Shown here piece after piece: positions 56,027 to 64,000 of a stretch of 64,000 nt of DNA; position 1 is the first letter of the stretch; the number at the start of each line of letters is the position of its first letter. The stretch comes from an uncultured Gemmatimonadota bacterium (lineage in GTDB: Bacteria > Gemmatimonadota > Gemmatimonadetes > Gemmatimonadales > Gemmatimonadaceae). Below the pieces are notes generated by a model. That model saw only the letters and a program-made list of their open reading frames with translations. It did not search any database and was not told the DNA's origin. Both the position numbers and the translations under genes were made by a program. The stretch spans positions 1 to 64,000 of the forward strand of contig CAIVZZ010000003.1 of assembly GCA_903910555.1 (NCBI GenBank), given 5' to 3'.

Positions 56027-56908
56027 ATGGCTGAAACCACAACGACAAACGTCGACGCGGCCGCGTACTCCGCGCAGGGAACTCCGCGTGATCGCGTAGC
56101 CCTGCCGGCGGAAACGTTCGACGGCACGGTGAATCTTCCCGTGATGCACCAGGCCGTGAAGGCCTTCCTTGCCAACCAGCGCCAGGGCAACGCGTCGACC
56201 AAGACGCGCGGCGAGGTGGTCGGTGGCAACCAGAAGCCGTGGAAGCAGAAGGGCACCGGCCGCGCGCGCCAGGGCTCGATCCGCGCGCCAAACTGGGTCG
56301 GCGGCGGCACCGTGTTCGGTCCGCGCCCGCGCAAATACACCGAAGTCGTGCCAAAGCAGATTCGTGCACTCGCTCGCAAGAGCGCGTTCAATGCACGTGC
56401 ACGCGAAGGCGCGCTCTTCGTGATCGACGCATTCGAATACGATGTGCCGAAGACCTCGAAGCTGCAGCAGCTGCTCGCGCGCCTCGAGCTCGCGCATCGC
56501 AAAGTGCTCATCCTCACGGACGGCGTGAAGCCGAACGTGTTTCTCTCCGGACGCAACCTGCCGCTCGCGCACGTGATGCCGTTCAGCGACGTCTCGACGT
56601 ACAACATCCTCTGGTCGGATGTCGTGCTCATCGAGTCGGCCGCACTCGGCGAGGCGATGGCACCGATGAAGGAAAAGGTTTTGTCGAAAGTGAAAGTGGT
56701 GCGGTATGTCGAGCGCTCGGCGAAAGCCGGAAGCGATGACGCCGAAGGCGTGAAGGCGCCAAAGGCGAAGGCCGCCAAGAAGACTGCAGCGAAAGCCGCG
56801 GCGAAAAAGGCGCCGGCCAAGAAAGCCGCTGCCAAGAAGCCGGCGGCGAAGGCTGCGGCCAAGAAAGCTCCGGCCAAGAAATCGGCCCCCAAGAAGAAGG
56901 GGAAGTAA
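56027..56908 (+). CDS. rplD: 50S ribosomal protein L4 with Lys/Ala/Pro-rich C-terminal tail
   Basis: '[41 protein letters not shown]'; tail '[34 protein letters not shown]'. Confidence 0.97.
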
Positions 56909-58058: not shown

Positions 58059-58421
58059 ATGGCAAGAAGCATTCGAAAGGGGCCCTTCGTTCAGGACAGC
58101 CTGCTGAAGCGCGTGCAGGGACTGAACTCGAGGAGCGAGAAGAAGGTCGTAAAGACCTGGTCGCGCGCGAGCACCGTGCTTCCCGATTTTGTCGGGCACA
58201 CGTTCGCCGTGCACAACGGGAACAAGTTCATCCCGGTGTACGTGACCGAAAATATGGTCGGGCACAAGCTCGGCGAATTCGCACCGACGCGACTCTTCCG
58301 CGGTCACACCGCGGCGGGTGGCAAGGCTGCGCCGGCAGACGCAAAGGCGACGGACCAGAAGGCGCGCCCAGGCGCACCGGCTGCCGCCGCTGCGGCGCCT
58401 GCCGCCAAGGGAGGCAAGTAA
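58059..58421 (+). CDS. rpsS: 30S ribosomal protein S19 with Ala-rich C-terminal extension
   Basis: [83 protein letters not shown]. Confidence 0.97.
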
Positions 58422-61197: not shown

Positions 61198-61899
61198 ATG
61201 GCTACTACTGACGACAAAAAGAAAGAAGGCGGCGGCAAAAAGAAGACGGAAGGCGGCAGCAAGAAGCGCCAGGCCGCCGCGGCCGCACCGCCGAAGGAGC
61301 ACACGGGAGTCGGCCAGCCGGCACCCGAGCCGCGCCTTCGCAACTATTATGTGAAGACCGTGCGCGGAAATCTGGCCAAGCAGTTCGGCCTGAAGAACGT
61401 GCACGAGATTCCGAATCTCGAGAAGATCGTTCTCAACGTCGGCATGAGTGAGGCGATCAAGCAGCCCAAGGTTCTCGACGCGGTTGTCGAGGAGCTCGGC
61501 ATCATCACCGGTCAGCGGCCGACCAAGAAGAAGGCGAAGAAGTCGATCGCCAACTATGGTTTGCGGCAGGGACAGGAGATCGGTGTGGCTGTGACGCTCC
61601 GTGGCGCGCGGATGTGGGAGTTTGCCGACCGTTTCATTTCGACGGCGATCCCGCGCATTCGCGACTTCCGCGGGCTCTCGACGCGCGCGTTCGACGGACG
61701 CGGCAACTACAGCATGGGCGTCAAAGAACAGATGATCTTCCCGGAGATCAACTACGACCAAGTAGAACAGATCCACGGCATGGACATCACGTTCGTCACG
61801 ACGACGAACAAGGATGACCAGGCGTTCGCGCTGCTGCGCGAGTTGGGCATGCCGTTCCGTGGTGATGACAAGCCGATCGTTGTTCAGGCTGCGCAGTAA
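61198..61899 (+). CDS. rplE: 50S ribosomal protein L5 with Lys/Gly/Ala-rich N-terminal extension
   Basis: L5 core '[64 protein letters not shown]'. Confidence 0.97.
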
Positions 61900-62231: not shown

Positions 62232-62258
62232 TGAAGGGAAGGGCGTAGGAAATGTTTC

Positions 62259-62318
62259 TTGTTGGCTGGTTAAGAAAGGTTAGTGGTTAAAACCAGTAAC
62301 GAATTAACCAACCAACAA
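62259..62318 (+). repeat. Copy C inverted-repeat element between rpsN and rpsH
   Basis: Outer arms TTGTTGGCTGGTTAA/TTAACCAACCAACAA (14/15); inner GTTAGTGGTT/AACCAGTAAC (9/10). Confidence 0.8.
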
Positions 62319-62405
62319 AAAAACAGAAACTCGCAGGTACAGCACTCTCACTTTCCAGAAGTCCGCCGCTAGAGCGGAAACCATGGGAAAAACCGGAAGC
62401 AATCC

Positions 62406-62820: not shown

Positions 62821-63360
62821 ATGTCACGTATTGGAAAGATTCCGATCCAGATCCCCGCGGGCGTCACAGTCACTGTGAGCGGCAGTTCCGTCACGGTGAA
62901 GGGACCCAAAGGTGAGCTCCATCGGAACATGCATGTCGATATCGGCGTTGCGGTCGACGGCGCGGTCGTCACCGTTTCGCGTCCGTCCGACGAACCGGTT
63001 CACAAGTCGCTTCACGGTCTCTCGCGTACGCTCGTCGCCAACATGGTCGAGGGCGTCACGAAGGGTTACTCGAAGCAGCTCGAGATCACGGGCGTCGGTT
63101 ACAAGGCGGAAGTGAAGCCTTACGGTCTGCAGCTCGCACTCGGTTTTTCGCATCAGATCGAGTACAAGGCACCGAAGGGGATCAAGCTGCTCGCACCGCA
63201 GCCGACACAGGTTGTGATCGAAGGCGCTGACAAGCAGGTCGTTGGACAGGTGGCCGCCGAGATTCGCTCGTTGCGTCCGCCCGAGCCGTACAAGGGCAAG
63301 GGAATTAAATACGCCGGCGAAGTGATTCGCAGAAAGGCCGGAAAGGCGGGAGGTAAGTAA
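62821..63360 (+). CDS. rplF: 50S ribosomal protein L6
   Basis: [33 protein letters not shown].., '[28 protein letters not shown]'. Confidence 0.98.
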
Positions 63361-63716
63361 TGCCGGGACAACGTGTACCCAAGACGCGCGATGGGCTGCG
63401 CACACGCCGTCACATTCGCGTTCGCGCGAAGGTGAAGGGAACGCTCGAGCGTCCGCGCCTCGTCGTCTTCCGTTCAGACAAGCACATCTACGCCCAGCTC
63501 GTGAACGACACCACACAGCGCACGATCGTGACGGTGACGGACAAGGGCTTTACGGGCAAGAAGAGCGAGAAGTCAGTCGAAGTTGGGAAGAAGATTGCCG
63601 AGAAGGCCAAGGCCGCCGGCATCAGCAAGGTCGTGTTCGACCGCGCTGGTTACCAGTATCACGGCCGCGTGAAAGCGGTGGCCGACGGAGCCCGCGAAGG
63701 CGGGCTGGAGTTCTAA
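63360..63716 (+). CDS. rplR: 50S ribosomal protein L18
   Basis: '[35 protein letters not shown]', '[28 protein letters not shown]'. Confidence 0.98.
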
Positions 63717-64000
63717 ATGGCAGAGAACGAGGGAACAACAGGCGAGCCGGCGGCAGCAGCGCCGTCCGAATCTGGTGAAGCGCCGCGTCAGGCGCCGCGC
63801 ACGGGCGGCAGCGCTCGCAGCGGTGGCGGCAGCGCGCGCAGCGGCGGCGGCCCGGGTGGCCGTGGTCGTGGCGGGCCGGGTGGTGGTCGCGGTGGTCCGG
63901 GCGGTGGACGTGGTGGCCCGGGCGGTGGTGGCGGACCAGGCGGCGGTGGTGGCGGTCGCGGACGCGGCGGCCCGGGCGGCGGTGCGCCTGGTGGTCGCGG
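63717..64000 (+). CDS. rpsE: Partial CDS in the rpsE (uS5) position; N-terminal RGG/Gly-rich extension only, open at window end
   Basis: ATG 1 nt after rplR stop; MAENEGTTGEPAAAAPSESGEAPRQAPRTGGSARSGGGSARSGGGPGGRGRGGPGGGRGGPGGGRGGPGG.. Identity from spc-operon order only; uS5 core not in window. Confidence 0.7.
   Translation, partial: MAENEGTTGEPAAAAPSESGEAPRQAPRTGGSARSGGGSARSGGGPGGRGRGGPGGGRGGPGGGRGGPGGGGGPGGGGGGRGRGGPGGGAPGGR

Follow-up and report, generated by a model that had tools for sequence, protein, structure and literature searches.

A long RGG-rich N-terminal tail on ribosomal protein uS5 in a family of Gemmatimonadota resembles the eukaryotic RPS2 tail in composition

Results

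A bacterial uS5 with an in-frame N-terminal extension

The window, which is the whole stretch of 64,000 nucleotides analysed here, ends inside rpsE, the gene for ribosomal protein uS5. The part of rpsE within the window (63717-64000, + strand) comprises 94 codons of an N-terminal extension. Directly 5' of it lies the uL18 gene rplR (63360-63716, +, from the ORF list), whose TAA stop codon (63714-63716) is followed immediately by the rpsE ATG, an arrangement common to 65 family members. A Shine-Dalgarno-like GGAG, read from the sequence at 63707-63710 (+), is located 7-10 nt before the ATG. The extension starts with a slightly acidic head rich in Ala, Glu, Pro and Ser (MAENEG...APR; 63717-63800, +), delimited from the translation and from the charge by thirds. 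The head is followed by a GGSARSGGG tandem motif (TGGSARSGGGSARSGGG; 63801-63851, +) and then by an RGG/PGGG repeat region (63852-64000, +) that was located by translation and repeat analysis, includes RGG-X4-RGG-X4-RGG and continues to about residue 107.

In the host genome the frame remains open beyond 64000 without a stop, forming one ORF of 283 aa (C3:63717-64568). Profile searches found an intact uS5 core, with PF00333 at residues 117-180 and PF03719 at residues 192-262, and the bacterial model TIGR01021 (rpsE_bact) matched residues 115-265 with 207 bits against a cutoff of 164. The eukaryotic/archaeal uS5 model TIGR01020 reached 83 bits, below its cutoff of 181.65; its alignment begins at model position 49 and query residue 116, and leaves the tail unaligned. 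This rpsE is the single uS5 copy in the host genome and sits in the spc operon order uL6-uL18-uS5-uL30-uL15 (uL30 and uL15 were recognised by inspecting the ORFs that follow), and the AlphaFold model of the core resembles solved bacterial uS5 structures with E values down to 1e-20. These results show that the ORF at 63717 is a normal bacterial uS5 fused in frame to an N-terminal tail of about 114 residues. The initial annotation had read the ORF from exactly this start and had expected the S5 core in frame past the window, as was found; the two observations that it had named against itself, an ORF ending before the S5 core and an internal start codon, were both absent.

A scan of the tail found no in-frame ATG, GTG or TTG between Met1 and the core. 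Among the 65 family members in which the end of uL18 was identified, 64 have the uS5 start within -4 to +4 nt of the uL18 stop, and all 65 have a Shine-Dalgarno core upstream of rpsE. The absent in-frame starts, together with the conserved uL18 junction and Shine-Dalgarno core, rule out an internal start or misannotation, and translation from the ATG at 63717 is the only reasonable reading. Short-read assembly is fragile in the repeat, and several relatives' contigs break inside it, which would favour a start-codon or assembly artefact with the true uS5 start internal. The tail is, however, also present in the single-contig genomes G019, G038, G073 and G128, and with the evidence on the start codon this makes such an artefact barely conceivable. 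Many draft contigs of relatives begin or end inside the rpsE repeat, for example G032:C92, G202:C58, G378:C216, G170:C2, G126:C36, G195:C281, G212:C12, G104:C8 and G217:C68. The rpsE tail is a recurrent assembly break, and this probably accounts for some of the 35 genomes of the phylum that have no PF00333 match.

Composition and predicted disorder of the tail

Residues 1-117 contain 55 Gly, 14 Arg, 13 Pro and 10 Ala, and no Lys, Phe, Tyr or Trp. Compared with equal use of the GC-rich codon boxes, these Gly, Ala, Pro and Arg counts gave a chi-square p of 7e-13, and the composition of the tail is therefore not due to chance. The tail carries all of its Arg without a single Lys, whereas the core has 11 of each, and its net charge in the source organism is modest, about +5. 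From the acidic head the order runs through the GGSARSGGG tandem and the RGG-PGGG repeat field to a mixed-charge junction and the core, and the repeat field contains the tri-RGG spacing (RGG X0-4 RGG X0-4 RGG) in the form RGGPGGGRGGPGGGRGG. Such spacing is typical of RNA-binding and condensate-forming proteins. AlphaFold pLDDT stayed mostly under 50 over residues 1-112, whereas most of the core exceeded 75, so the extension of about 114 residues is predicted to be intrinsically disordered.

At the DNA level the tail consists in part of tandem repeats with periods of 21 and 27 nt. Of the 68 family tails, 35 contain the peptide motif SARSG, against a shuffle expectation of about 0.05. Of the five occurrences of the DNA pattern encoding GRGGPGG in the 3.2-Mb genome, four are in rpsE and the fifth is an isolated motif within an M20-peptidase-like ORF. 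The same pattern was found in all 41 family genomes, where the clusters listed were mostly at rpsE and the matches elsewhere were scattered and single.

Other ribosomal proteins in the window also carry low-complexity tails. In uL4 (rplD, 56027-56908, +), which has a below-cutoff match to the NCBIfam L4 'sunset domain variant' model, residues ~209-293 form a histone-H1-like C-terminal tail of ~85 residues, rich in Lys, Ala and Pro, with AAKKAPAKK repeats. Residues 1-45 of uL5 (rplE, 61198-61899, +) are a Lys/Gly/Ala-rich N-terminal extension of ~45 residues, and uS19 (58059-58421) ends in an Ala/Lys/Gly-rich C-terminal tail. Ribosomal proteins of the source organism may commonly bear low-complexity tails, which carry Arg alone on uS5 and are rich in Lys on the other proteins. 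Between rpsN and rpsH, genes separated by a long gap in the spc operon, there is a strong AT-rich hairpin (62258-62325, +; TTGTTGGCTGGTTAA...TTAACCAACCAACAA; fold z -3.7), which is single-copy in the genome, has no Rfam match and is possibly a processing or regulatory site.

Distribution and evolutionary origin

We sampled 134 complete rpsE genes of the phylum for their uS5 starts and scored a tail as at least 40 aa with at least 25% Gly and at least three RG. All 68 genes from the family of the organism (f1), including 13 from its genus, had a long RGG tail; these tails span 74-136 aa, a range whose longest arrays are possibly miscounted since the relatives are mostly drafts with several contigs broken in the repeat. 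Tails were also scored in 9 of 20 genes of f2, a family of the same order, in 4 of 5 genes of f6 and in 1 of 22 genes of f5. No gene of f3, f4, f7, f9 or the sister class f11 had one, the f11 tails being 11-25 aa long.

A tree was built from uL18 and the uS5 core with the tail columns excluded, by a quick search over about 290 columns. The organism's own family formed a single starred clade (99) and f6 a separate starred clade (97). The tail label requires at least ten changes on this tree, a count that does not separate gains from losses. On these sequence comparisons we regard the tail as derived within the phylum and recurrent, reappearing in at least one distant family. In other bacterial phyla, sampled through PDB chains only, uS5 tails are short except in actinobacterial ribosomes. 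Separate short-to-medium RGG tails on uS5 were observed in L144 and L145 (family f6) and in L193-L195 (Actinomycetota), for example MAAAGGRGGRGGRGRGREEERSPYEEKV, which suggests repeated gains across bacteria.

Selection acts on the peptide

Pooled over 13 close pairs, pN/pS was 0.13 for the tail against 0.08 for the core. In gapped pairs the ratio is underestimated, as the aligner seeks the highest identity it can reach in the repeats; the gap-free pairs L041/L042, L060/L074 and L076/L077 together showed 38 synonymous and 2 nonsynonymous changes. GC content at codon positions 1, 2 and 3 was 0.90, 0.87 and 0.58 in the tail and 0.66, 0.49 and 0.69 in the core. The high GC of the first two positions in the tail reflects the need of the protein for Gly, Arg and Pro, and the third-position GC below that of the core rules out GC drift as the origin of the tail. 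Tail length shifts rapidly and in frame between close relatives (123/116, 104/101 and 93/86 aa). Of the slippage that had been proposed for the repeat, only in-frame changes in repeat length are visible, while purifying selection conserves the residues.

A GG-rich repeat near the 5' end of a gene could also point to the nucleic acid as the conserved element, whether as mRNA structure, G-quadruplex or translation ramp, with the peptide as a by-product. One of ten tails (L062) was indeed more structured than its synonymous shuffles, with a z of -3.1. In the other nine there was no excess of mRNA structure (z -0.65 to +2.0, with 0.19 for the organism's own tail), and Arg (CGN) and Pro (CCN) codons that interrupt the G-tracts recur throughout. 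With the shuffles mostly devoid of signal, mRNA structure or G-quadruplexes as the selected entity were rejected, and the broader nucleic-acid explanation is very improbable. Low pN/pS, the GC content by codon position, the general lack of excess RNA structure and the in-frame length changes therefore point to selection on peptide composition. Selection appears to see this composition and a rough length rather than the nucleic acid or a precise order of residues.

Comparison with eukaryotic and actinobacterial uS5

The initial annotation had likened the tail to that of eukaryotic RPS2, and the likeness holds in composition: both are Gly/Arg-rich, Lys-poor and disordered, with RGG runs at the same terminus of the same ribosomal protein. 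Residues 1-57 of human RPS2, whose identity was checked against PDB chains, are 44% Gly and 19% Arg; Gly is about 44% and Arg 12-19% in the two tails, and both have GGPGGPGG and RGG/RG runs following a short acidic MA(D/E) start. The gemmatimonad tail, however, belongs to a uS5 whose core is of bacterial type. It has no homology to the RPS2 tail and twice its length, and its RGG motifs are spaced by PGGG where RPS2 has a pure RG run. These comparisons support a compositional likeness and a convergent rather than homologous tail. The convergence suggested for this DNA is borne out: the uS5 that bears the tail is of bacterial type, the sister class has no such tail, and the origin of the tail lies within the phylum. 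A 2023 review described an RG-rich extension as unique to eukaryotic uS5 (PMC10216425), which is not strictly true if judged by these sequences, as bacterial uS5 also has RG-rich tails.

Actinomycetota uS5 proteins have R/G-rich N-terminal extensions of 28-73 aa, some with true RGG (MAAAGGRGGRGGRGRGREEE...). These extensions show that, among bacteria, RG-rich uS5 tails are not peculiar to this organism. We found no described bacterial RGG uS5 in the literature beyond the actinobacterial structures, and no structural or biochemical work on a gemmatimonad ribosome. The N-terminal extension of M. smegmatis uS5 enters the mRNA entry channel (PMC6133939), and in C. acnes a globular density attributed to the uS5 extension plugs the 30S mRNA entrance (PMC10085706). 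The actinobacterial and gemmatimonad tails are alike in being R/G-rich N-terminal parts of a bacterial uS5, the former placed by cryo-EM at the mRNA entry channel. They differ in phylum and in length, and the actinobacterial tails are richer in D/E and N/Q and have no PGGG tandem array, whereas the gemmatimonad tail is far richer in Gly, RGG and PGGG. With eukaryotic RGG-box RNA-binding proteins the gemmatimonad tail shares the RGG-X4-RGG-X4-RGG spacing, disorder and a cationic charge from Arg alone, but it is almost without aromatics (Phe 0-0.2% in the family), bacterial and part of a core ribosomal protein.

Arginine methylation, which in the RPS2-type tail is the work of PRMT3/PRMT1, was addressed through candidate partner enzymes. 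A PRMT_C profile search found matches in only 5 of 61 family genomes, and the match in the organism's own genome was weak (30.3 bits), its double-E loop reading SD where SE is canonical. No convincing PRMT partner emerged from this search, and a conserved one was rejected on the low count and the non-canonical loop of the weak match. The ORF concerned, a PRMT_C-like methyltransferase found in a minority of the family (G000:C11:17163-17495; L207:1012-2025), adjoins an HprK-like ORF, and from their sequences the two look like a peptide-modification cluster. PDCD2_C, a domain sought as a sign of the dedicated RPS2 chaperone PDCD2/Tsr4, was matched in none of 151 genomes, in a search that had no working positive control. 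That the tail is conserved although no conserved PRMT is obvious suggests that its root function may be contact with RNA and not methylation.

Discussion

In the 30S subunit, uS5 lies at the mRNA entrance together with uS3 and uS4. Binding of RNA by RGG regions is weak and multivalent. By analogy, the convergent RGG tail may bind RNA, either mRNA or rRNA, where mRNA enters the 30S subunit, a reading to which we give an even chance. Judging from the position of uS5 and from the actinobacterial extensions, the tail would project from the entrance; those extensions are shorter and D/E-richer, so that this location is carried over to the gemmatimonad tail by analogy. Through its Arg and Gly residues the tail would touch both the incoming mRNA and the 16S rRNA close by, in many weak contacts, and would act as a flexible RNA tether or chaperone in mRNA loading, helping to capture or hold the mRNA. 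On ribosomes that are idle it might also block the channel. Composition and rough length rather than an exact sequence would matter for such a tail, which fits the rapid in-frame changes in its length. As related families have no tail, it is not essential to bacterial translation.

Two other explanations were weighed against RNA binding at the entrance. The tail could be a tolerated low-complexity expansion, in which a solvent-exposed end grew by repeat slippage, the gene being GC-rich, and selection does no more than keep it soluble, disordered and in frame. The rapid length changes, the tandem repeats of 21 and 27 nt and the tails on further ribosomal proteins of the source organism agree with this. 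Fixation in 68 of 68 family genes with no loss, the pN/pS of 0.13, Arg without Lys and recurrence in unrelated lineages argue against it, as does the third-position GC below the core's, which speaks against an origin by GC drift, and we consider a tolerated expansion doubtful. A tail serving mainly 30S assembly or ribosome storage, through RNA chaperoning or condensation and by binding rRNA or joining ribosomes in clusters or hibernation, would equally draw on the RGG composition, the predicted disorder and the tri-RGG spacing, and uS5 has been implicated in fidelity and biogenesis (reference cited in PMC6133939). Known bacterial uS5 extensions nevertheless point toward the mRNA entrance, and a main role in assembly or storage seems rather unlikely.

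Taken further, RNA binding at the entrance raises the tentative possibility of a family-wide specialised mRNA entrance, in which the convergent, eukaryote-like RGG tail would be a built-in RNA chaperone or condensation arm controlling both the choice of mRNA loaded on the 30S and the clustering of ribosomes. If this were true, an RG tail on uS5 would be a recurrent solution, reached independently in eukaryotes, Gemmatimonadota and Actinomycetota. An independent, longer tail on a bacterial ribosome, fixed in one family and with tail-less relatives in the same phylum, offers a natural comparison for the eukaryotic RG tail and is relevant to the ways in which bacteria alter the site of mRNA entry.
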